From contig CALDSE010000009.1 in NCBI GenBank assembly GCA_937911175.1, positions 1 through 34,343 on the forward strand: a DNA stretch of 34,343 nt, read 5' to 3'. The notes under the pieces were generated by a model, which was given only the letters and a program-made list of their open reading frames with translations, was not told where the DNA came from and did not search any database. Below, in pieces: positions 6,821 to 18,119 of the stretch (positions are counted from its first letter, which is position 1; every line of letters starts with the position of its first letter). The position numbers were made by a program, and so were the translations under genes. Source of the DNA: an uncultured Sediminibacterium sp. Its GTDB lineage: Bacteria > Bacteroidota > Bacteroidia > Chitinophagales > Chitinophagaceae.

Positions 6821-7660
6821 TTAGCAACAACCAGCTCCTGGCACACAGGCAGCTTTTGGTTTTTGTGCAAATACGGTTACGGAAAAAATGCCCATTTGAG
6901 AAGCTCTAAAAGCAGCAATTTCTGCTGGGTTTAAATAATTCACTAAAATATCATCAGGGATAATAATAGCTTTTTCTTTTTGTATAGTTACATTTTCAAA
7001 ACCATTCGCATCAATTAATTCCATGTAGACTTGTTTTTGAATAGCCCCAGACACACAACCCGCATACATTTCTGCAGCATTTCTTATACCTTCTGGAAGT
7101 GCACCTACTAATACCACATCAGAAATACTAAAATGTCCACCTGGTTTTAAGACTCTAAATATATCTTGAATGACTGCATGTTTATTAGGCACTAAGTTGA
7201 GTACACAATTACTTACAACTACATCTGCACTATTAGCGGTAATAGGCATATGCTCTATATCGCCTTGTCTAAATTCAACATTATGGTAGCCCATTTTTTC
7301 AGCATTGGCACGCGCCTTTTCAATCATGGCGGGTGTAAAATCAATGCCTATCACTTTACCAGTAGCCCCTGTACTTCTTCTAGCTACAAAACAATCATTG
7401 CCTGCACCCGATCCTAAGTCTACTACAACATCTCCTTCTTTTATTTTCGCAAATTCAGTGGGTAAGCCACAGCCTAGTCCTAAATCGGCACCTTCAACAT
7501 AGCCAGGTAGTTTAGTATAGTCGTCCGACATGATATTGTATATTTCAGTACTGCAACCACCTGCACCACAACAAGAAGACATATTGGTCTCTTTGTCTTG
7601 TAAAGCAATCTCACTGTATTTTGCTTTTACGATTTCTTTTAATTCTAATTCTGTTTTCAT
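6821..7660 (-). CDS. arsM: Arsenite S-adenosylmethionine methyltransferase
   Basis: Methylates As(III) using S-adenosylmethionine, giving methylated arsenicals that can leave the cell as volatile or diffusible products. The 279-residue chain has the SAM-binding motif VVDLGSGAGNDCFVARR near residue 78 and the acidic loop GIDFTPAMIEKA near 105. The arsenite-binding cysteines of the family are present: Cys64 (LGLGCGLP), Cys152 (SNCVLNL) and Cys202 (YAGCVSGA). An N-terminal cluster SSCCGAGGC (Cys30, 31, 36) and a C-terminal GAGCC add further thiols. The gene starts 18 bases after the arsR stop, so the two are co-transcribed. Confidence is high because all three catalytic cysteines are in place. 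Confidence 0.93.
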   Translation of the reverse strand: MKTELELKEIVKAKYSEIALQDKETNMSSCCGAGGCSTEIYNIMSDDYTKLPGYVEGADLGLGCGLPTEFAKIKEGDVVVDLGSGAGNDCFVARRSTGATGKVIGIDFTPAMIEKARANAEKMGYHNVEFRQGDIEHMPITANSADVVVSNCVLNLVPNKHAVIQDIFRVLKPGGHFSISDVVLVGALPEGIRNAAEMYAGCVSGAIQKQVYMELIDANGFENVTIQKEKAIIIPDDILVNYLNPAEIAAFRASQMGIFSVTVFAQKPKAACVPGAGCC

Positions 7661-7678
7661 AGTTTGAATTTTATATTG

Positions 7679-7993
7679 TTAACAACAAGATTTTGCTTTG
7701 TAAGTAGTGGTAAATAAGCCATCAAATAGTTTCCCTATTTTTTTCCAGTTAGACTCATTAATACAATAACATGTTTTTACACCTGTTATTTCTCCCTGTA
7801 TTAAACCCGCTTCTTTTAATTCTTTTAGATGTTGTGAAACGGTGCTTTGCGAAAGCGGTAGTTCGTCTACAATATCTCCACAAATACAGGTTTGTTTTTT
7901 TAACAACAATCTAATAATAGCTACCCTGGCTGGGTGCCCCATTGCTTTGGCAAGCAATGCTATTTGTTCATCTTTTTCTGAATAGGGAGTCAT
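7679..7993 (-). CDS. arsR: ArsR/SmtB-family arsenic-responsive repressor
   Basis: Winged-helix repressor of 104 residues, expected to bind its own promoter and release it on binding As(III)/Sb(III). The DNA-recognition helix is in [20 protein letters not shown] (about 45-64). Candidate metal thiols: Cys36 and Cys38 (QTCICGD, the position of the E. coli ArsR alpha-3 site), Cys75 and Cys77 in the wing (KTCYCIN), and a terminal pair Cys103-Cys104. First gene of arsR-arsM-arsC. A 12-bp inverted repeat just upstream of its start (8001-8026) is the likely operator, so the gene is probably autoregulated. Confidence 0.93.
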
Positions 7994-8000
7994 AGTATCT

Positions 8001-8026
8001 TATTAATCGTAAAATTACGATTAATA
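8001..8026. promoter_or_regulatory. Inverted repeat, probable ArsR operator
   Basis: Perfect 12-bp arms TATTAATCGTAA (8001-8012) and TTACGATTAATA (8015-8026) with a 2-base spacer. It lies 8 to 33 bases before the arsR start and has the ATCG...CGAT form common for ArsR/SmtB operators. Its position over the -7 region of the predicted arsR promoter fits repression by blocking RNA polymerase. Confidence 0.8.
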
Positions 8027-8040
8027 TTTACTCCACAAAA
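8010..8040 (-). promoter_or_regulatory. Predicted sigma-A promoter of arsR-arsM-arsC
   Basis: Read on the minus strand: TTTTG (8040-8036), an 18-base spacer, then TAATTTTA (8017-8010), a 7/8 match to the Bacteroidota -7 element TAnnTTTG. The -7 element lies inside the inverted repeat. Transcription would begin close to the arsR start, leaving a very short leader. Confidence 0.5.
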
Positions 8041-8097
8041 TATTTTACAAACTATTTTTTAAAAACTGATTAAGATCATTCAAAAAAGCCCATACAT

Positions 8098-8126
8098 AAA
8101 AAAGCCCAGTCTTTTAAGGACCAGGC
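8098..8126 (-). terminator. Intrinsic terminator of the alanine dehydrogenase gene
   Basis: On the minus-strand RNA, GCCUGGUC pairs with GACUGGGC (8126-8119 with 8111-8104) using two internal G-U pairs, loop of 7, followed by six U (8103-8098). It begins 27 bases after the ald stop. On the plus strand the same arms leave a mismatch, so it is oriented for the minus-strand gene. Confidence 0.8.
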
Positions 8127-8152
8127 TTTTCATTCTCAAACTCATATGAATA

Positions 8153-9238
8153 CTATGCGTTGAAAGCGTCGGCTACGCCTTTATGTAAAATTTTTCCTGC
8201 TTTAATATTTAATCCTTTTGCTAAAGCTGCATTTTCAACACATGCTTTTTCCCATCCTTTATTGGCAATAGAAATGGCATAAGGTAAAGTAGCCTGTGTA
8301 AGTGCGCGTGTAGAAGTTTGTGGAACCGCCCCTGGCATATTGGCTACGCAGTAATGCAAAATATTTTGCTCCATGTAAACAGGGTTCTCATGCGTGGTAG
8401 GTTTGCAAGTTTCAATACAGCCTCCTTGGTCAACGGCAACATCTACTACTACGGTACCTGCTTCCATTAAAGCTAAATCGGCTTTCTTAATTAAATGCGG
8501 CGCCTTCGCACCATGTAATAATACCGCACCTATTACTAAATCAACAGTAGGTAATTTTTCTTGAATAGCCATTAAAGTAGAATACTGCGTAACTACATTC
8601 GCTGGCATTACATCCGATAAATATCTTAAACGTGTTAAGTTAGTATCCATTATAGTAACATGGGCGCCTAAGCCTGCAGCCATTTTAGCGGCCTGTGTTC
8701 CTACAATACCACCACCTATAATTAATACTTCTGCTGGTTTCACACCTGGTACTCCTCCTAATAATTTTCCTTTTCCACCAAATGGTTTGCCTAAATAATA
8801 AGCACCCACATTCACAGCCATTCTTCCTGCTACTTCAGACATGGGTACTAATAGTGGCAATGAGCCATCAGGTAATTCCACTGTTTCATAAGCAATACAA
8901 ACTGCATGAGATTTCATCATCGCATCTGTTAATTCTTTTGATGCTGCAAAGTGGAAATAAGTAAATAAAATTTGTCCTGGTTTAATAAGAGGAAATTCTG
9001 CAGCAAGTGGTTCTTTTACTTTAATAATCATTTCAGCAATGTCGTATACATCTTTAGCCGTCGCTAAAATTGTTGCACCTGCTTTTATATAAGCCTCATC
9101 AGAAAATCCAGAGCCAAGACCTGCCTTAGTTTCTACATTCACTGTATGACCTTGTCTTGTAAGTGCGTCCGCGCCTTCTGGTGTCAAACCCACTCTATAC
9201 TCTTGAATCTTAATTTCTTTAGGAACTCCAATAACCAT
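8153..9238 (-). CDS. ald: Alanine dehydrogenase
   Basis: NAD-dependent enzyme converting L-alanine to pyruvate and ammonia, and the reverse; cytoplasmic, linking amino acid catabolism with central carbon. The 361-residue product begins MVIGVPKEIKIQEYRVGLTP, the family N-terminus, with Arg and Lys residues of the substrate pocket. VLIIGGGIVGTQAAKMAAGL near 171 is the Rossmann nucleotide-binding loop, followed by the acidic residue of IMDTN. VVVDVAVDQGGCIETCKPT and NMPGAVPQTSTRALTQATLP are also typical. Length is normal for the family. The gene diverges from an Lrp/AsnC regulator across 156 bases, an arrangement often seen for alanine dehydrogenase and its regulator, and has its own terminator. 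Confidence 0.95.
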   Translation of the reverse strand: MVIGVPKEIKIQEYRVGLTPEGADALTRQGHTVNVETKAGLGSGFSDEAYIKAGATILATAKDVYDIAEMIIKVKEPLAAEFPLIKPGQILFTYFHFAASKELTDAMMKSHAVCIAYETVELPDGSLPLLVPMSEVAGRMAVNVGAYYLGKPFGGKGKLLGGVPGVKPAEVLIIGGGIVGTQAAKMAAGLGAHVTIMDTNLTRLRYLSDVMPANVVTQYSTLMAIQEKLPTVDLVIGAVLLHGAKAPHLIKKADLALMEAGTVVVDVAVDQGGCIETCKPTTHENPVYMEQNILHYCVANMPGAVPQTSTRALTQATLPYAISIANKGWEKACVENAALAKGLNIKAGKILHKGVADAFNA

Positions 9239-9342
9239 GATTTTTTGTTTTTATTTCTGTACAAATATCTATTAAAAGGAAATATTCATTTAATAATGAT
9301 AATATTCAGTAAAATATCTTGTTAATTTGGGTAATTAGCAAA

Positions 9343-9356
9343 AAATAACGTTATTT
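9343..9356. promoter_or_regulatory. 14-bp palindrome in the ald/lrp intergenic region
   Basis: AAATAAC/GTTATTT is a perfect palindrome 38 bases before the Lrp-type regulator start. In the same AT-rich gap, AATATTCA occurs twice about 20 bases apart, at about 9280-9287 and 9300-9307. These are candidate Lrp/AsnC-family binding sites for control of both divergent genes, but AT-rich DNA yields short palindromes by chance. Confidence 0.35.
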
Positions 9357-9394
9357 ACAGTAGAATTTATCCTAAAAACAGAAATTATTTCTCT

Positions 9395-9853
9395 ATGGCA
9401 CTTGACGCTATTGACCAATCTATCTTACGCATTTTACAAAAGGATGCATTGGCTACATTAAAAGACATTAGTGCGGCCATTAATTTATCACTAAGCCCTA
9501 CACATGACCGTATTAAAAGACTAGAAGCAGAGGGCTATATTTTACATTATGTAACCCTGCTGGATAGAAAAAAATTAGACCTTGGTTTAGTGGTACACTG
9601 CCAAGTAACTTTAGACAAACAAACCCGTTCACATTTTTCTGAATTTGAAAAAACCATTTCAAAATTTCCAGAAATTATTGCTTGCAGTTTAGTATCGGGC
9701 AGCTTTGATTATTATTTAAAATTAGTGACCAAGGATGTAGAGTCTTATAATAAATTTTATCAGGAACAATTAGCCGTGCTGCCCATGGTGGCGCATATTA
9801 ATAGTTTATTTGTAATGGATGAAATTAAAATAACGACCGAGCTTCCCATTTAA
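9395..9853 (+). CDS. Lrp/AsnC-family transcriptional regulator
   Basis: A 152-residue DNA-binding regulator. The N-terminal helix-turn-helix covers about residues 5-60 (ALDAIDQSILRILQKDALAT, then LSPTHDRIKRLEAEGYI as recognition helix). The C-terminal RAM ligand-binding domain covers about 65-150, with the conserved stretch ACSLVSGSFDYYLKLVTKDV that lies at the effector pocket. It diverges from the alanine dehydrogenase gene. By analogy to known Lrp/AldR-alanine dehydrogenase pairs I infer that it controls ald in response to alanine or another amino acid. The downstream PaiB-like gene starts 72 bases later and could be co-transcribed. Confidence 0.9.
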   Translation: MALDAIDQSILRILQKDALATLKDISAAINLSLSPTHDRIKRLEAEGYILHYVTLLDRKKLDLGLVVHCQVTLDKQTRSHFSEFEKTISKFPEIIACSLVSGSFDYYLKLVTKDVESYNKFYQEQLAVLPMVAHINSLFVMDEIKITTELPI

Positions 9854-9925
9854 TATTTAAGTAGAAATATACTTATACTTTGAGTAATTAAAATAAATTT
9901 AAATAAGAATAATAACTTCCGAACC

Positions 9926-10567
9926 ATGTACAATATACCTCATTTTAAAGCCAAGGATCATCAAGAAGTATTGGACTTTATGCAAGCGAACCCCTTTGTA
10001 ACTATTTGTGGTGTTGACCAAGCAGGCTTTCCGGTGGCTACACAAGTTCCCGTTTTATTGACTATAGAAGAAGATAAAATTATTATTAGTGGTCATGTTA
10101 TGCGCAAGCAAGAACATACCAATGCTTTTGAAATGAATAATAAAGTATTAGTTATTTTCTCTGGGCCATCGGCCTTTGTAAGTGCCAATTGGTATACCAC
10201 CAAAAATATGGGTAGCACTTGGAACTACCAGTCGGTGCAAGCAAAAGGAAGTTTAGAAATTAAAGATGAAAAGCATTTATATAATTTATTAGAAAAGCTT
10301 ACCCTACATTTTGAAAAAGATGCGAATGCGCCTACACAAGTGAAAAATTTATCAGCTGAATACCTGGAGCAAAATATGAAAGCCATTTATTCTTTCGATA
10401 TTATGGTGAGTGATTTGCAACATGTTTTTAAATTAAGTCAGAATAGAGATGAAGCTTCCAAAGCTAATATACACGCTGAATTGAGTAAGGGAGATGCGGC
10501 TTGCAAGCATATGGCAGCAGCTATGAAGGCTCAATCAAATCCCAAAGATTCCCATAAAAATCTTTAA
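9926..10567 (+). CDS. PaiB-like FMN-binding split-barrel protein
   Basis: A 213-residue protein of the pyridoxamine-phosphate-oxidase-like split-barrel fold, closest in motif order to the PaiB/FMN-binding negative regulator family. Seen: MYNIPHFKAKD start, PVATQVPVLL near 35, SGHVMRKQEHTNAF near 58 (the GHMARxN-type motif), VLVIFSGPSAFVSANWY near 76, and TWNYQSVQAKG near 99 (the family TWNYxxVxxxG). PaiB in Bacillus was named for an effect on protease and sporulation genes, but for most members the real substrate is unknown, so no regulatory role is asserted. Its 3' end overlaps the converging VOC gene by 47 bases. Confidence 0.82.
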   Translation: MYNIPHFKAKDHQEVLDFMQANPFVTICGVDQAGFPVATQVPVLLTIEEDKIIISGHVMRKQEHTNAFEMNNKVLVIFSGPSAFVSANWYTTKNMGSTWNYQSVQAKGSLEIKDEKHLYNLLEKLTLHFEKDANAPTQVKNLSAEYLEQNMKAIYSFDIMVSDLQHVFKLSQNRDEASKANIHAELSKGDAACKHMAAAMKAQSNPKDSHKNL

Positions 10568-10913
10568 ACACCGCAACGGTTCCATAAGCTTCGACATGCG
10601 GAGGGATGGTGAATTCAACTCCTTTGGAAATATAGTTTTGATAATCCCTTTCAAAATTATCGGTGTATAAAAATAAAAATACACGACCACCTGTTTGATA
10701 ACCAATAAACTTTTCTTGCTCGGGGGTAGCTGCTTTGGCAAGTAATAACATACAACCATTATTGGCCCCAGTTGGTTGCACCATTACCCATCTTTTGGTT
10801 TCAGATAAAACGGTGTCTTCAATTAATGTAAACCCTAAAGTGTTAGTATAATAAGTAATGGCTTCGTCGTAATCACGAACCACCACAGCAATATGTGCCA
10901 AGCTTTGTTTCAT
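10521..10913 (-). CDS. VOC-family (glyoxalase/bleomycin-resistance-like) protein
   Basis: A 130-residue single-domain vicinal-oxygen-chelate protein. The first beta-alpha-beta-beta-beta unit starts LAHIAVVVRDYDEAITYYTN with His7 as a likely metal ligand. The second ends AVFKDFYGNLWDLIEP, where the Glu of LIEP is the usual last metal ligand. Substrate is unknown; the family includes glyoxalases, dioxygenases and antibiotic-binding proteins, and VOC proteins this general are often detoxification enzymes. Its last 47 bases are convergent with, and overlap, the end of the PaiB-like gene; codon logic holds in both frames, so both genes look real. Confidence 0.85.
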   Translation of the reverse strand: MKQSLAHIAVVVRDYDEAITYYTNTLGFTLIEDTVLSETKRWVMVQPTGANNGCMLLLAKAATPEQEKFIGYQTGGRVFLFLYTDNFERDYQNYISKGVEFTIPPHVEAYGTVAVFKDFYGNLWDLIEPS

Positions 10914-10984
10914 ATTTCAAATATACAATAATTAAAATCTTTCTTTAACTTCACCACACTATTTATTCTTAAAATTCAATATCA

Positions 10985-11608
10985 ATGGCTGCTGTAAAAA
11001 ATTTAATTTTCGATTTAGGCAATGTCATATATGATATTGATTTTAAAAAAATGAATACCGCTTTTGCCTCCATTGGTATAGAAGACATTGACCAGCATTT
11101 TACTTTGAATAAATCACATCAATTATTTTTAGACTTAGAAATGGGCTTTGTGAATGAACAGGCATTTTATGATGGTGTGAGGGCCTTAGTGAATTTACCT
11201 TTAACGAATGAGCAAATTCATTTTGCTTGGAACGCACTACTTGTAGGCTTTAGAATAAATAGCATTGACTGGATTCAACAAAACAATACTAAGTACAATA
11301 CTTTTTTATATTCCAATACCAATCAAATTCACCACGACCATTTTATAGCTGAGTTTGAAAGCAAGGTGGCTGCTTACCCTTTTGTATCTCTTTTTAAGAC
11401 GCCCTATTATTCTCATGAAATGGGTATGCGCAAACCCGACCCCGCTTCTTTTACTTATATAGTAGAGAAAGAGGGCTTGGTGGCAAGTGAAACCCTATTT
11501 ATTGACGACAATGAACCCAATATTATAGCAGCCGCCTCTGTGGGGCTTCAAGTGCTTCATTTAAAAGAGGGGATGAGGGTGGAAAAGGATATCGAGGCCT
11601 ATTTATAG
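10985..11608 (+). CDS. HAD-superfamily phosphatase, YihX-like
   Basis: A 207-residue haloacid-dehalogenase-type hydrolase. Motif I is IFDLGNVIYDIDF with nucleophile Asp10; the usual second Asp of DxD is Gly, as in YihX. Motif II is LYSNTNQIHH (Ser/Thr of SNTN), motif III is GMRKPDPASF (Lys), and motif IV is FIDDNEPNI (two Asp). This motif set resembles the E. coli alpha-D-glucose-1-phosphate phosphatase YihX, but HAD substrates cannot be assigned from motifs. The cap is the small helical type between motifs I and II. It stands 71 bases after the divergent VOC gene start. Confidence 0.88.
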   Translation: MAAVKNLIFDLGNVIYDIDFKKMNTAFASIGIEDIDQHFTLNKSHQLFLDLEMGFVNEQAFYDGVRALVNLPLTNEQIHFAWNALLVGFRINSIDWIQQNNTKYNTFLYSNTNQIHHDHFIAEFESKVAAYPFVSLFKTPYYSHEMGMRKPDPASFTYIVEKEGLVASETLFIDDNEPNIIAAASVGLQVLHLKEGMRVEKDIEAYL

Positions 11609-11624
11609 CCTCTATTTCTTCACT

Positions 11625-11879
11625 CTACTTTTTCTTAACTTCCTCAAATTCAATGTATTCTGCTTCCACTGGCTCCTCTTTAGGAGCGTAGTTGGCGCTT
11701 GTATTTTGACCAGCCTTCTGACTGTTTTGCGCATTTCTTACTGCTTCGGCCTGCTTCTTCTGCATCTGCTCCATATTCTTCCTTACAGACCTCACTCCCT
11801 TGGTTACGGGAACCACTACCTGAAATATTACTTTGTACAAAAAGTAAATCAAGAACCCATATAAAATAAACTTCGTCAT
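11625..11879 (-). CDS. Small membrane-anchored DUF4834-type protein
   Basis: An 84-residue protein with one N-terminal membrane helix (TKFILYGFLIYFLYKVIFQV) followed by a charged, Gln/Lys/Ala-rich cytoplasmic tail that ends in EPVEAEYIEFEEVKKK. The pattern matches small Bacteroidota proteins known as DUF4834, of unknown function. I placed the start at the ATG at 11879 because the helix begins there; an upstream extension to 11945 would add 22 polar residues overlapping the rimP promoter. A TATTTTTG element (11891-11884, minus strand) stands only 4 bases before this start, which would give an almost leaderless mRNA. It is encoded next to, and divergent from, rimP. Confidence 0.7.
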   Translation of the reverse strand: MTKFILYGFLIYFLYKVIFQVVVPVTKGVRSVRKNMEQMQKKQAEAVRNAQNSQKAGQNTSANYAPKEEPVEAEYIEFEEVKKK

Positions 11880-11906
11880 ACTGCAAAAATAAGGGCCTTG
11901 CCAATA

Positions 11907-11941
11907 TTTTTGGGATATTTCATCCTGTTTTATTACCTTTG
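11907..11941 (+). promoter_or_regulatory. Predicted promoter of rimP-nusA-infB
   Basis: TTTTTG (11907-11912), a 21-base spacer after its TTG, then TACCTTTG (11934-11941), an exact match to the Bacteroidota -7 consensus TAnnTTTG. The start of transcription should lie near 11947, giving about 53 bases of leader before the rimP ATG at 12000. Confidence 0.65.
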
Positions 11942-11962
11942 GCATAGAATAGAAGAAAATGT

Positions 11963-11996
11963 GAAGGGAACGAAATCGTTCCCTTCTTCTTTTTTA
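11963..11996 (+). terminator. Terminator-like hairpin in the rimP leader (putative attenuator)
   Basis: Perfect 11-bp stem GAAGGGAACGA (11963-11973) with TCGTTCCCTTC (11976-11986), followed by TTCTTTTTT, all between the predicted transcription start and the rimP ATG at 12000. The leader segment AGAAGAA (11951-11957) is complementary to TTCTTCT (11984-11990), which includes the end of the stem and the U run, so an alternative pairing is possible. The orientation is only right for plus-strand transcription. No plus-strand gene ends nearby that would need this terminator: the nearest is the HAD gene at 11608, with a minus-strand gene in between. Confidence 0.7.
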
Positions 11997-11999
11997 AGT

Positions 12000-12470
12000 A
12001 TGCAAGCAAACGAGATTATAGCCTTAGTGAATCCAATTTTGGAACAACTTCTTAAAGAGGAGCCTAGTTATTTCTGCGTTTCGGTGAAAGTGAAGCCAAC
12101 CAACAATATCAAAATATTCTTGGACGGCGACCAAGGCCTGCCTATTGAAAAATGCACATTTATCAACAGGAAATTATACCGCATTATGGAAGAAGCGGCC
12201 TGGTTTCCGGAAGGCGACTTCTCTTTAGAGGTTTCTTCCCCAGGAATAGATGAGCCTTTAGTCTTGAATCGTCAGTATATCAAGAATATGGGACGCAAGG
12301 TAGAAGTCACTTTTTTGGATGAGACCATTAAAGAAGGAGTTTTGAAAGAAGTAACAGAGAAAGACATATTAATAGAATGGACAGATGGGAAAGGTAAAAA
12401 AGCAGCCGTGCAAACTTTATTAATTCCTTTTGATCAAATAAAAACAACAATCGTTCAAGTTCAATTTTAA
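12000..12470 (+). CDS. rimP: Ribosome maturation factor RimP
   Basis: Needed for late maturation of the 30S ribosomal subunit. The 156-residue product has the family layout: N-terminal alpha/beta domain with IKIFLDGDQGLPIEKCTFIN near 40-59, then DFSLEVSSPGIDEPLVLNRQ (the characteristic EVSSPGxxxPL motif), and a C-terminal Sm-like barrel (GRKVEVTFLDETIKEGVL). I chose the ATG at 12000; the frame is open further upstream to 11898 but that region holds the predicted promoter and terminator hairpin, and the family starts at this Met. It is followed by nusA 42 bases later, the conserved rimP-nusA-infB order. Expression may be set by the leader hairpin just upstream. Confidence 0.93.
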   Translation: MQANEIIALVNPILEQLLKEEPSYFCVSVKVKPTNNIKIFLDGDQGLPIEKCTFINRKLYRIMEEAAWFPEGDFSLEVSSPGIDEPLVLNRQYIKNMGRKVEVTFLDETIKEGVLKEVTEKDILIEWTDGKGKKAAVQTLLIPFDQIKTTIVQVQF

Positions 12471-12512
12471 CAAACAAATCATCAAGCAAGTAGCTTGAAA
12501 AAAAATTATGTT

Positions 12513-13763
12513 ATGGCAAGTATAAATTTAATTGAAGCCTTTCAGGAGTTTAAAGACGCAGAAAGCATTGACCGTCCTACCATGATGAAAGTGGTAGAAG
12601 ACGTATTCAAAACCTTATTGAGAAAAAAATACGGTAGTGATGAAAATTTTGACGTTATCGTAAACGCTGAAAAAGGCGACTTAGAAATTATTCGTCGTCG
12701 TCAAATTAGAGACGATGATGATGTAGATAATCCTTTAGAAGAGGTTTCTTATTCTGAAGCTATTAAAATTCAACCCGACTATGAAGTAGGAGAGGATTTA
12801 TTAGAAGAAGTAGACATCTTGGACTTCGGAAGAAGAGCCATACTAGCGGCTAAGCAAACATTGGCCTCTCGTATCAATGACTTGAAGAAAAACGCTTTAG
12901 TAAAGAAATATTCTGATAGAATTGGAGACATCATGAATGCTGAAATTTATCAGGTATGGAAAAAAGAAGTATTGTTATTAGATGAAGAAGGCAATGAATT
13001 AATTCTTCCTAAGTCGGAGCAAATTCCACAAGACTTTTTTAAGAAAGGAGAAAATATTAGAGCGGTTATTGCTAGAGTGGATATGAAAAATAATTCACCA
13101 GTGATTATCTTATCTAGAACAAGCCCCTTATTCTTAGCAAAATTATTAGAAATAGAAGTACCAGAAATTTTTGATGGTTTAATTACTATTAAGAAAATTG
13201 TTCGTGAGCCAGGTGAGCGTGCGAAAGTAGCGGTGGAGTCATTCGATGATAGAATTGATCCAGTAGGTGCTTGCGTAGGTATGAAAGGAAGTCGTATTCA
13301 TGGTATCGTAAGAGAATTGAAAAATGAAAATATTGATGTAATTAATTTCACTACCAATACACAATTATTAATTCAACGTTCATTAACACCTTCTAAAATT
13401 AGTTACATGAATATTGATGCTGAAAAAATGCACGCCGAAGTGTATTTAAAAGCAGATCAAGTTTCATTAGCCATTGGACGTAGAGGAGTGAACATTAAAT
13501 TAGCTTCTGAATTAACGGGTTACGAATTAGATGTATACCGTGAAGATGAAGAAATCGTTGATGAATTTGATATTGACTTAGATGAATTTAGCGATGAGAT
13601 TGAAACATGGATCATTGATGAATTTAAGCGTGTGGGTTGTGATACGGCAAGAAGCATATTAAACCTAGGCGCTGAAGAATTAGAGAAAAGAACAGACCTA
13701 GAAAAAGAAACGATTGCAGATGTGCGTCGAATCTTACAAGAAGAATTTGATAAAGGTGAATAA
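12513..13763 (+). CDS. nusA: Transcription termination/antitermination factor NusA
   Basis: Binds RNA polymerase and nascent RNA, stabilising pauses and hairpin-dependent termination. I chose the ATG at 12513 (MASINLIEAFQEFKDAE) over a TTG at 12495, giving 416 residues. Domains: RNA polymerase-binding N-terminal domain (about 1-125), S1 domain (about 135-205, starting near NAEIYQVWKKEVLLL), KH1 (about 235-290, GACVGMKGSRIHGIVREL), KH2 (about 300-365, SLAIGRRGVNIKLASELTGY), then an acidic tail and a helix-hairpin-helix-like region (VGCDTARSILNLGAEELEKR). The long AR repeats of E. coli NusA are replaced by this shorter end, as in other Bacteroidota. Second gene of the rimP-nusA-infB unit; infB starts 43 bases after it. 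Confidence 0.95.
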   Translation: MASINLIEAFQEFKDAESIDRPTMMKVVEDVFKTLLRKKYGSDENFDVIVNAEKGDLEIIRRRQIRDDDDVDNPLEEVSYSEAIKIQPDYEVGEDLLEEVDILDFGRRAILAAKQTLASRINDLKKNALVKKYSDRIGDIMNAEIYQVWKKEVLLLDEEGNELILPKSEQIPQDFFKKGENIRAVIARVDMKNNSPVIILSRTSPLFLAKLLEIEVPEIFDGLITIKKIVREPGERAKVAVESFDDRIDPVGACVGMKGSRIHGIVRELKNENIDVINFTTNTQLLIQRSLTPSKISYMNIDAEKMHAEVYLKADQVSLAIGRRGVNIKLASELTGYELDVYREDEEIVDEFDIDLDEFSDEIETWIIDEFKRVGCDTARSILNLGAEELEKRTDLEKETIADVRRILQEEFDKGE

Positions 13764-13806
13764 CCTTTCGATTTAGTAAATAATAACTGGGACAAAAAAC
13801 AACAGA

Positions 13807-16659
13807 ATGTCAGAATTGAAACTACCAAGATTGTTAGCAGCTGCTAAAGAATTCAACATCGGTCAAGATACCTTGATTGAATTCTTAGTGAAAAAAGGTT
13901 TTCCTAAAGATGACCTTAAGCCAACAGCTAAATTAACTGAGGATCAGTATTATTCTCTACAAGCAGAATTTCAAAGCGATAAAGTAGCTAGAGATAAAGC
14001 AGACCATGTGGAGCTTCCTAAAAATGCTGTGGCCGATAAAGACAAGGCAAAGAAGCCTGTACTGGCAGAACCTGAAGCGGCTAAGCCTGCAGCAAAAGCA
14101 GAAGTAGAAAAACCAAAGACAGTGAAGGCTGCTGAAAAAGAAGTAGAAAAACCTGCTACTGTTAAGATTGATGCCCCTGAAGTAGAGTCGCCTAAAGTAG
14201 TTGACAAAATAGATTTATCCTTAATAGACTCTTCTACTCGACCTAAAAAATCGGCAAAGAAAGAAGAGCCAGCTGAAAAACCAGCCAAAGAAACGCCTGC
14301 TAAAAAATCGGCGAAAAAAGAAGAGCCAGCAGCAAAGCCAGTAAAAGAAACACGTGCTCCAGTAGATCATTCTATATCACCTGAAAATGTGCATGGCAAA
14401 ATTGAAAACATTACTTCAAAAAAATTAGAAGGTCCTAAAGTAATGGGTAAAATTGATTTACCTATTAACAGCGATACACGTCCTAAGCCATTGAGTCAAG
14501 AAGAAAAACGTAAACGTAAACGTATTCCTTCTCAAGGTCCACAACAAGGTGGTGGCGGTCAGGGTCAAGGGGGTAATCAAACACAGGGCGGAGGTCAAAG
14601 ACCAGGTGGCGGATACCAAGGACAAGGTGGTGGACAAAGACCAGGCGGTGGATACCAAGGACAAGGTGGTGGTCAAAGACCAGGTGGCGGACAAAGACCA
14701 GGTGGAAATAGAAATGCACCACAAACTGCAGAACAAAAAGAAATTGGTCAAAAAGCCATTCAAGATAAGATTAAAGAAACGCAAGCAAAATTAGCAGGCG
14801 CAGGTGGAAGAGGAAAAAGTTTGAAATCGAAATACAGACGTGCTAAAAGAGATGAAGCTGCAGAAAATGAAACCAATGAAATAACAGATAATAAATTACA
14901 AGTTACCGAGTTTGTAACGGTAAGTGAGTTATCAAGTTTGATGGATGTAAGTTTTGCAGACATTATTAGCAAGTGTATGAACTTGGGTATCATGGTTTCA
15001 ATTAACCAACGTTTAGATGCAGAGGTTATTGAACTAGTAGCCAGTGAATTTGGTTTTGAAGTAGAATTTGTGGGATTAGAAGATGCAGAAGAAATGGATG
15101 AAGAAGAAGAAGCAGACGATTTAGCCAACTTGGTAGAGCGTCCGCCGATTGTAACTATTATGGGTCACGTTGACCATGGTAAAACTTCTTTACTAGATTA
15201 TATCCGTAATGCCAATGTAGTAGCGGGTGAGGCAGGAGGTATTACACAACATATTGGTGCTTATGAAGTGACTTTGCCGAATGGTAAAGCCATTACTTTC
15301 TTAGATACGCCGGGTCACGAAGCCTTTACAGCCATGCGTGCGCGTGGTGCGAAAGTAACTGATATCGCTATTATTGTGGTAGCTGCCGATGATGCGGTGA
15401 TGCCACAAACCAAGGAAGCCATTAGTCACGCGCAAGCAGCGAATGTGCCTATGATTTTTGCGGTGAATAAAATTGATAAAGATGGTGCACAGCCACAGAA
15501 AATATATGAGCAACTTTCTCAAATGAATATTTTAGTAGAAGCTTGGGGTGGTAAATTCCAAAACCAAGAATTATCTGCTAAGCAAGGTTTAAATGTAGAT
15601 ACTTTATTAGAGAAGGTTATTTTAGAATCTGATTTATTAGATTTAAAAGCCAACCCGAATAGAGAAGGTTCTGGAAGTATTATTGAAGCCTCTTTAGATA
15701 AAGGACGTGGATATGTTGCTACTATTTTAGTTCAGAATGGAACTTTAAGACAAGGTGATTTAATTTTATCTGGTCAGTTCTATGGTAGAGTGAAGGCCAT
15801 GTTTAACGAGCGTAATCAGCGTATCGAAGTAGCGCCGCCTTCAACACCAGTGGTTATCTTAGGTTTAAATGGTGCACCACAAGCGGGTGAGAAATTTAAA
15901 GTATATAATGACGAGGCAGAAGCAAAAGAATTAGCGACTAAGCGTGCTCAATTATTAAGAGAGCAAGGTTTAAGAACTAGAAAACATATTACACTAGATG
16001 AAATTGGTCGTCGTTTAGCCTTAGGTAACTTTAAAGAATTAAATATTATCATTAAAGGTGACGTGGATGGTTCTGTTGAAGCCTTAAGTGATTCATTACA
16101 AAAATTATCTACTGAAGAAATTGCGATTAGAGTTATTTTAAAAGGAGTAGGTCAAATTTCTGAATCGGACGTACTACTTTCTGCAGCTTCTGATGCCATT
16201 ATCATTGGATTTAACGTTCGACCTTCTATGCAAGCTAATAAATTAGCAGAAACGGAAGGGGTAGAGATTAAATTATACTCTATTATCTACAACGCTATTG
16301 ATGAAATCAAGTCTGCGATGGAAGGTATGTTGGAACCAAAAATTCAAGAAAAAATTGTGGCCAACGTAGAAGTAAGAGAAGTGTACAAATTTGATAAGGC
16401 TACCGTTGCTGGATGTTTCGTTTTAGATGGCAAGTTGAGTAGAAATAGTAAGATTAGAATTATACGTGACGGTATCGTTGAATATCCTAAAGGTGAAGGT
16501 CAAAGTGCTGAGTTAGGTAGTTTAAAGCGTTTCAAAGACGACGTGAAAGATGTCGTATCGAATATGGAATGTGGTTTAACAATTAAAAACTTTATCGACC
16601 TTAAAGTAGGGGATATTGTGGAAGCCTTTGAAGAAGAGGAAGTAAAACGTACTTTATAA
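13807..16659 (+). CDS. infB: Translation initiation factor IF-2
   Basis: GTPase that brings initiator tRNA to the 30S subunit and promotes subunit joining. The 950-residue chain starts with an IF2 N-terminal helical domain ([20 protein letters not shown]), continues with a Lys/Ala/Glu/Pro-rich linker and a Gly/Gln/Arg/Pro repeat region (about 243-300), then a second IF2-N-like module ([20 protein letters not shown] near 363). The G domain has G1 GHVDHGKTS (about 453), G3 DTPGHE (about 500) and G4 NKID (about 554). Domains II-IV follow, ending [18 protein letters not shown]. All catalytic motifs, including the His of DTPGH, are intact. Third gene of rimP-nusA-infB. Confidence 0.97.
14587..14691 (+). 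repeat. 39-bp in-frame tandem repeat inside infB
   Basis: Two full copies (14587-14625 and 14626-14664) and a partial third (14665-14691) encode [13 protein letters not shown] units in the disordered linker of IF-2. Copies differ at a few third-codon positions. The number of units is likely to vary among strains; it is not a separate gene. Confidence 0.9.
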
Positions 16660-16678
16660 AAAAATTAAGATTTGCTAT

Positions 16679-16695
16679 TTGGGTAAATGACCCAA
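16679..16695. repeat. Short inverted repeat before the SurA-like gene
   Basis: TTGGGT (16679-16684) and ACCCAA (16690-16695) with a 5-base spacer, 33 bases before the SurA-like start. There is no T run after it, so it is not an intrinsic terminator. It could be a regulator site or a processing hairpin between infB and the next gene; the evidence is only the symmetry. Confidence 0.35.
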
Positions 16696-16727
16696 GTGGC
16701 AGAACTTTACCAAATAATAAAAAATCG

Positions 16728-18119
16728 ATGAAATTAATTAGTATTGCATTTTCTTTATTTTGCTTGACCATTTCTTTTTCAGTGAAAGCGCAAGTAAAAA
16801 AAGTATTAGCAGATAAAATTATTGCCACTGTGGGTGATAAATTTATTTTAAAATCAGATGTTGAAAATGCCATTGGCGATTATAAGCGTCAAGCGCAAGG
16901 TCAAGAAAATATAGGTATACCTTCTGAGTGTCAAATCGTGGAAGGTCAATTAATTCGCAAGGCCTTAGTATTACAAGCACTCATCGATTCTATCATAGTT
17001 ACAGAAGAAGACGTAGAAGTAGCGATGGAAAGTCGTGTTCGTAGTTTCATTCAACAATTTGGCTCTAAAGAAGTATTAGAAGAAGTAGCAGGCCGTACTG
17101 TCTTCCAACTAAAAGAAGATTTTCGCATTTTAATTAAAGAGCAAAAATTAGCTGACGAAATGCAGGCTAAAATTGTAGAAAAAGTTAAGATCACCCCTAC
17201 TGAAGTTAAAAATTACTATGAAAAAATACCTTTAGATAGCCTGCCTCTATATGAAAGCGAAGTGCAAGTAACAGAATTAGTGATGCATCCTAAAGCCAAT
17301 AGAGATGTGGAAGAATATGTGATCCAACAAATGTTAGAGTATAGAAAACAAATTGAGTCAGGTGCTAATAAATTTGATCAATTAGTTAAATTATATTCCG
17401 AAGACCCTAGTGCCAAGGAAAACCTAGGCATGTTTAATTTAAACCGTAACGAGAAAAATTTTGATCCTGCATTTATGTCGGGTTCTTTCCGTTTAAAAGA
17501 AGGTCAAATTTCTGCCCCTATTAAATCTAAATTCGGCTACCATATTATTCAGCTTGTTTCAAGATCAGGTGATGAAGCGGTGGTAAAACATATTTTACGT
17601 ATTCCTCCAATTACCAACGACGAAATCAATGAAACAAAATTGTTTTTAGATAGTATTAGAAAAGAGATGACCGCTAATAGATTAAGTTTTGGCGAAGCCG
17701 TTAATAAGTTTAGTGATGATGAAGGCAGTAAGTTTAGTGGTGGTGCTATCACTGGTCGTGATGGATCTACTTATGTAAATATTGACCAATTAGACAAAGA
17801 AATGGTGGTCTTAATGAAGAATATGAAGCCAGGTGATATCTCTACACCACAGGTATACTTAGACGATCGTGGTAGAAAAACAGTAAGACTTATTTATTTT
17901 AAAGAGCGTACTATACCGCATAGAGAAAATTTAAAAGAAGATTATAATAAAGTTGCACAACGTGCACTAGAAGAAAAAAAGGCAAAGTCAATGGAGACTT
18001 GGTTTAAAGAGCATGTTCCTAGTTATTATGTTTTTGTTGATGATTCTTTTCAAGGCTGCGTTGAATTAACGGATTGGACTAAGGTGGCCAATCAGATTGT
18101 GAAAGAAAAAACGTTTTAA
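16728..18119 (+). CDS. SurA-like periplasmic peptidyl-prolyl isomerase/chaperone
   Basis: Periplasmic chaperone that helps outer membrane proteins fold. The 463-residue product has a signal peptide (MKLISIAFSLFCLTISFSVKAQ), a SurA N-terminal helical domain (ADKIIATVGDKFILKSDVEN onward), then two parvulin-type PpiC domains (about 178-275 and 280-385). The first contains FDQLVKLYSEDPSAKENLG and FGYHIIQLVSR; the second contains NKFSDDEGSKFSGGAI. It starts 68 bases after infB and the pirin gene follows after 14 bases, so it may be partly read through from the rimP operon; a short inverted repeat lies in the gap before it. Bacteroidota genomes usually carry several such proteins, so I do not assign the name surA. 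Confidence 0.9.
   Translation: MKLISIAFSLFCLTISFSVKAQVKKVLADKIIATVGDKFILKSDVENAIGDYKRQAQGQENIGIPSECQIVEGQLIRKALVLQALIDSIIVTEEDVEVAMESRVRSFIQQFGSKEVLEEVAGRTVFQLKEDFRILIKEQKLADEMQAKIVEKVKITPTEVKNYYEKIPLDSLPLYESEVQVTELVMHPKANRDVEEYVIQQMLEYRKQIESGANKFDQLVKLYSEDPSAKENLGMFNLNRNEKNFDPAFMSGSFRLKEGQISAPIKSKFGYHIIQLVSRSGDEAVVKHILRIPPITNDEINETKLFLDSIRKEMTANRLSFGEAVNKFSDDEGSKFSGGAITGRDGSTYVNIDQLDKEMVVLMKNMKPGDISTPQVYLDDRGRKTVRLIYFKERTIPHRENLKEDYNKVAQRALEEKKAKSMETWFKEHVPSYYVFVDDSFQGCVELTDWTKVANQIVKEKTF

Follow-up and report, generated by a model that had tools for sequence, protein, structure and literature searches.

The window (the whole stretch of DNA analysed here, 34,343 nt from an uncultured Sediminibacterium sp.) carries the operon rimP-nusA-infB on its plus strand, preceded by a promoter, a hairpin and a U-rich tail (Table 1). 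The element TTTTTG, which we take to be a -33 element of the Bacteroidota sigma-A type, is followed by a -7 element, and the transcription start site would lie near 11947-11948. The hairpin reads GAAGGGAACG-AAAT-CGTTCCCTTC, its tail is broken by one C, and 13 nt separate the end of the stem from the rimP ATG. An earlier note on this DNA had described the promoter, hairpin and ATG in this arrangement, and they were read at the same places. The same note called the hairpin a perfect one of 11 bp, which is right for the DNA palindrome, while the RNA forms 10 bp with a loop of 4 nt.

Table 1. Features of the rimP leader and operon in the window (positions are those of the window).
Feature	Position	Strand	Evidence
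-33 element TTTTTG	11907-11912	+	direct reading of letters
-7 element TACCTTTG (pattern TANNTTTG)	11934-11941	+	direct reading; 21 nt from TTTTTG
Leader stem-loop, 10 bp, AAAU loop, intrinsic-terminator type	11963-11986	+	terminator scan, folding, covariation
U-rich tail TTCTTTTTT	11987-11995	+	direct reading, terminator scan
rimP, operon gene 1	12000-12470 (ATG 12000-12002)	+	Pfam PF02576, PF17384
nusA	12513-13763	+	Pfam PF08529, PF13184; start codon read from sequence
infB (IF-2)	13807-16659	+	Pfam PF11987, PF04760, GTPase matches

Upstream on the plus strand, the HAD-like gene already stops at 11608, ahead of the promoter, and the intervening small ORF is encoded on the minus strand. A terminator thus appears to be needed by no upstream gene, as the earlier note had held, and the layout disfavours the hairpin as the terminator of such a gene. 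In the scan of 7000-18000, 16 terminator-like sites were found versus a shuffle average of 7.8, and the leader hairpin (10 pairs, 6 of them G-C) tops the list. The RNA of 11947-11997 has a folding energy of -19.5 kcal/mol (z -4.76), which was equalled by none of 200 shuffles; the longer RNA of 11947-12060 is less striking (z -2.42; 5 of 200 shuffles equal). Besides, the rimP reading frame is open over the whole of 11898-12470, so automatic annotation could place the RimP start too early, within the promoter or leader. Between rimP and nusA there is also a small inverted repeat (12482-12498), with a plus-strand A run and then the nusA start behind it, which scored as terminator-like on the minus strand only.

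For the comparison across loci, we took 220 nt before each RimP match and counted a hairpin when the stem had at least 5 pairs with 4 G-C, the loop 3-10 nt and the tail at least 5 T in 8. RimP matches were found in 269 genomes of the class Bacteroidia, from which 101 loci were read: the 30 returned, and 71 chosen so as to represent families. These 71 were drawn from the better-scoring matches listed, and families with a lower-scoring RimP lie outside that set. A separate search gave 11 extra class loci (3 of them from the window's family), and 35 loci of the phylum from outside the class served as outgroup. The named set consists of 38 loci minus L069 (Acidobacteria) and overlaps the genus set, so the sets are not additive. 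Among 49 matches in one locus search, L031 (gene cut at the contig end) and 10 further ones were left out, and L045 has only 61 nt of upstream sequence. One assembly, G226 (contamination 4%), gave two RimP matches and is possibly a mixed bin.

The earlier note had made its reading depend on conservation of the hairpin in relatives, and a hairpin with a U-rich tail was present at all genus loci (29 of 29 and 9 of 9), with averages of 0.38 and 0.06 in 50 shuffles. It was also found at 35 of 37 named loci (shuffle average 0.90, 50 shuffles), 96 of 101 and 9 of 11 class loci (1.80 and 0.32) and, outside the class but within the phylum, 25 of 35 loci (1.72). The rule thus found no hairpin at 7 of 112 class loci and at 10 of 35 in the outgroup. 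On visual inspection, a hairpin with a longer loop or an imperfect stem can be made out in most of these (for example L145, L183, L188, L237 and L243), and none is seen at L133 and L088. L237 and L238 (family f22), both missed by the rule, have an imperfect stem with other letters upstream of RimP, perhaps a diverged form.

The promoter accompanies the hairpin in most loci of the class. With the same strict box TANNTTTG applied to loci and controls, a -7 box is present in the 60 nt that precede the hairpin in 71 of 73 Chitinophagales (control windows further upstream, 3 of 143) and in 102 of the 105 class loci with a hairpin (5 of 210), and none occurs in the 68 nt after the hairpin (0 of 73 and 0 of 105). 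Elsewhere in the phylum, it is present in only 6 of 25 (control, 2 of 50). At 18-26 nt upstream of the -7 box, TTTG is seen in 52 of 71 Chitinophagales but only 47 of 102 class loci (1 and 5 in controls 100 nt upstream). The median distance from box to stem start is 21 nt (quartiles 19-21 in 72 Chitinophagales and 17-26 in 102 class loci), which would put the stem start about 15 nt after the start site. With a looser box, TANNTTT, the order of promoter, hairpin and start is found at 29 of 29 and 9 of 9 genus loci, 34 of 37 named loci, 93 of 101 and 9 of 11 class loci; in the other classes of the phylum it is seen at 10 of 35.

The same order is rare in the window's own genome (2.03 Mb in 81 contigs), of which we sampled 200 ORFs of at least 120 codons (283 kb, window included). 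For 56 of them TANNTTTG occurs in the 200 nt upstream and for 16 a hairpin with a T-run, while promoter, hairpin and start in order at spacings of 8-60 nt were found for a single ORF, which is rimP. These ORFs were scored with the strict box and taken to start at their first ATG, an assumption that may fail for some genes, and the rimP sets compared in this order were scored with the looser TANNTTT. The hairpin is not a repeated or mobile element either, as its sequence occurs at one place in this genome with up to 3 mismatches allowed.

An in-frame ATG follows the end of the stem at a median distance of 13 nt in Chitinophagales (66 loci) and of 15 nt in the class (94 loci); no such ATG stands downstream of the hairpin in another 6 and 8 loci, respectively. 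A gap this short would suit a hairpin that acts after transcription, by guarding the mRNA 5' end or by limiting ribosome access to rimP, and the fixed stem letters described below could then be the site of a bound protein. Yet the distance varies from 5 to 81 nt in the class, and the U-rich tail directly 3' of the stem, which such a role does not need, is conserved, so that we regard this explanation as quite improbable.

An alignment of relatives had been proposed in the earlier note as a way to look for covariation in the stem. In alignment A1 (50 distinct leaders, all picked from leaders in which a hairpin had been detected, a choice that favours pairing), 88.2% of the cells are paired and changes on both sides occur at 8 of 10 pairs. 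The 80 double-change cells compare with 25.6 in shuffles (0 of 500 as high), whereas the number of pairs with double changes is less telling (8 versus 6.5; 80 of 500). When the partner is slid by 1-3 columns, pairing falls from 88.2% to 43-69%; together with the hairpin counts against shuffles, this argues that selection bias is not the whole cause of the pairing. RNAalifold gave the same helix with 9 pairs, 7 of which have changes on both sides.

The palindrome could in principle be a DNA operator that binds a repressor just behind the start site, as it is an inverted repeat of 11 bp with the same letters throughout the genus set. A rigid dimer site would hardly tolerate the arm gap of 5, 6, 7 or 8 nt seen in 4, 33, 12 and 1 of 50 distinct Chitinophagales leaders, or loops of 3-9 nt across the class, and the U-rich tail is on one side only. 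The variable loop and arm gap and the one-sided tail favour an RNA terminator hairpin, and an operator seems highly improbable. Judged by the layout in most loci, the covarying stems, the variable arm spacing and the singling out of rimP in the own-genome sample, the element is a terminator-type leader. The attenuator-like leader of the earlier note is in this respect borne out by the conserved unit of promoter, hairpin and start and by the covariation.

The antiterminator that the earlier note had suggested, a pairing of AGAAGAA with TTCTTCT, did not stand up. It can be drawn on paper, but the hairpin stays and the fold is weaker: the stem alone has -17.0 kcal/mol, the claimed pairing with a residual 7-bp stem -16.0, and the stem with an outer helix -19.5. 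In the predicted ground state AGAAGAA forms this outer helix and prolongs the stem. AGAAGAA is absent from all but the closest relatives (L011, L015-L017 and L019, for example, are without it). Neither this pairing nor the ensemble pairing of short leaders supported a mutually exclusive antiterminator structure, and no other conserved motif was seen in the leader comparisons. The mean pairing probability of the stem is predicted to be high (medians 0.995 and 0.986).

Within the genus not only the structure but also the letters of the stem are kept. The arms AGGGAAC and GTTCCCT occur in 38 of 38 genus leaders, and the four leaders without them (L061, L064, L065 and L066) are all outside the genus set. 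The 18 stem letters are identical in 37 of 37 genus leaders compared, and since the stem was found by its motif, this identity of 1.00 carries weight only because there is no leader without the motif. The pair comparison covered 28 genomes. In pairs with RimP identity below 0.70, agreement is 0.35 and 0.41 at the four-fold sites of rimP and 0.29 and 0.40 over the 14 nt preceding the stem; in closer pairs the values are 0.48 and 0.64 for four-fold sites and 0.80 and 0.94 for the 14 nt. The 10-nt tail has a mean identity of 0.87-0.96 in genus pairs. As controls we took the 3' terminators of two other genus genes, in which the hairpin is kept (30 of 30 and 16 of 17) and the letters vary, with 18 distinct arms in 30 and 14 in 16. 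The mean best arm identity there is 0.63 and 0.59, to be read with the reservation that the arms partly differ in length, that there are two genes only, and that 7 of 17 loci of the second gene, about 39-41% identical, may be paralogues.

Across the 112 class loci, the arms are GGGGAC/GTCCCC in 59, another GGGG form in 26, another GGG form in 13, GGGAAC in 6 and reversed in 1, and 7 have no hairpin. GGG is therefore in the 5' arm of 104 of the 105 class hairpins. The exception, L092, is the only one with a C-rich 5' arm, a polarity that is common in the other classes of the phylum, where 13 loci are CCC-first, 11 GGG-first, 2 other and 9 without hairpin.

R1, a model of the element, has its top match at rimP among 19 matches in the own genome, with rimP itself being 1 of the 50 training rows. 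The 9 distinct sites inspected were rimP, one site after tRNA-Ser, six after ORFs and one upstream of an ORF; 7 of the 8 besides rimP are thus placed like ordinary terminators. Matches at E <= 0.1 were found in 35 of 40 class genomes, with up to 48 per genome, so R1 is not specific to rimP. A terminator-like hairpin at L256 1501-1550 (C28:80165-80214, minus strand) lies about 110 nt upstream of a 215-aa ORF; no ORF of at least 80 codons ends on its strand in the preceding 300 nt, and neither a tRNA nor an Rfam match was found there. It might terminate a second leader or mark where an unannotated small RNA ends.

Rfam at its cut-offs gave 0 matches in the window. At E <= 1, six loci gave 5 matches, namely one tRNA and four below cut-off; a Termite-leu match on the minus strand over the L048 leader (22.1 bits versus a cut-off of 51, E 0.52) was taken as chance. 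The Rfam model RF01770 (rimP), with 102 positions, describes a leader of the same gene. It matched 57 of 61 phylum genomes at E <= 10 and none of the 61 over cut-off, which indicates that at this threshold it finds hairpins in general.

At the head of the rimP-nusA-infB operon, promoter, hairpin and start codon are conserved together as a unit, and this is best read as premature termination within the leader. We think it probable that the hairpin is a promoter-proximal intrinsic terminator acting as an attenuator of the operon, with the terminated share most likely set by NusA. RNA polymerase would start about 15 nt before the hairpin, and the stem would form on leaving the enzyme. A part of the polymerases would stop in the U-rich stretch near 11990-11995 (about +45), giving a leader RNA of about 45-50 nt, and the remaining ones would read on into rimP. 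NusA, encoded by the second gene, would stimulate hairpin-dependent pausing and termination, so that more NusA would lead to more stopping. There would be no second RNA form, and the switch, if any, would be protein-driven. Sigma may still be bound at about +45, which could hinder NusA. The C in the U tail, the loci without a hairpin and the strict -7 box in only 6 of 25 outgroup loci also count against the attenuator.

A simpler possibility is a passive terminator, which would stop a fixed share of polymerases and damp a strong promoter without any regulator. Neither an antiterminator nor another conserved leader motif was found, the stem is predicted to form nearly always, and the R1 matches elsewhere in class genomes, which we assume to be ordinary terminators, fit such a role as well. 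A passive terminator needs structure only. In the genus, however, the stem keeps its letters whereas the two control 3' terminators do not, and the operon itself encodes a termination factor; we therefore consider a passive terminator unlikely.

More tentatively, and with some doubt, the attenuator might read the letters themselves: an operon protein (NusA first, RimP or IF2 second) could recognise the emerging stem GGGAAC/GUUCCC in Chitinophagaceae or GGGGAC/GUCCCC in many other Bacteroidia and force a stop at about +45. If true, this would be an unusually compact autoregulatory attenuator, a class-wide family with leaders of about 50 nt. Counting against it, R1 matches many other sites in the class, those in the own genome mostly follow ORFs or a tRNA, and both polarities occur in other classes of the phylum.

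To our knowledge, few attenuators have been worked out in the class Bacteroidia. Elsewhere, the closest known system is the rimP-leader (Naville and Gautheret 2010, PMC2965389), given there as the most ubiquitous attenuator, with rimP first among attenuated gene families in 302 genomes. The main text of that paper names Firmicutes and Gammaproteobacteria and contains no word beginning with "bacteroid", and its supplementary rimP-leader list may hold Bacteroidetes members. The paper proposes NusA as the effector and cites repression of the operon by NusA. In a 2025 review (PMC12288461), Bacillus subtilis NusA is described as autoregulated through NusA-stimulated termination in its own 5' leader. 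These two precedents make NusA the candidate here, as a regulator by analogy; termination in the B. subtilis leader is stated as shown, whereas the present case is one of anatomy. According to PMC2965389, the rimP leader of B. subtilis is 180 nt long, compared with the roughly 50 nt that we infer. For E. coli, two terminators upstream of rimP are mentioned (PMC6511841).

As described in PMC2965389, the rimP-leader is a terminator hairpin with a G-rich 5' arm, a C-rich 3' arm and a T-stretch in the 5' UTR of rimP-nusA-infB, and GAAGGGAACG/CGTTCCCTTC followed by TTCTTTTTT agrees with this. Its distance from the start, 4-130 nt, includes the 13 nt of the window. In its general form it likewise has no larger conserved element or visible antiterminator and an unusually conserved stem sequence. 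Its motif is GGGc...gCCC (lower case taken as weaker conservation), compared with GGGa...uCCC in the window, where the next pair is A-U, and GGGGAC in 59 of 112 class loci. The letters differ in that Bacteroidia mostly have GGGGAC/GTCCCC and Chitinophagaceae GGGAACG/CGTTCCC.

The earlier note knew of no description of a hairpin in this position in Bacteroidota. In 2021, however, a structured 5' element preceding rimP was named for Flavobacterium psychrophilum and other Flavobacteriaceae genera, with no Rfam match (PMC9723704). It concerns the same gene, phylum and transcribed 5' region and is named in a list in the main text; going by this description, it is likely the same hairpin. The GUCCY-hairpin (PMC2864571) recalls the GUCCCC arm by its name and taxa (Bacteroidetes, Proteobacteria), which makes it a lead by name only, and rimP, nusA and infB are absent from the main text of that paper. 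In the main texts of two B. thetaiotaomicron transcriptome papers, word searches for rimP and nusA gave no hits, and no other accounts for Bacteroidota were found in a literature search covering the main texts of open-access journal papers.

In conclusion, the leader most likely represents, in Bacteroidota, the known kind of rimP leader with which the operon can throttle itself. New here are its spread over the class Bacteroidia, its position so near the promoter (the stem begins about 15 nt downstream of the presumed start) and its genus-fixed stem letters, the layout, letters and covarying stem coming from comparison of loci. This suggests that control of the supply of RimP, NusA and IF2 by a transcription stop in the leader extends across the class, and so short and uniform a leader would make NusA self-control testable with small constructs in which structure can be separated from letters.
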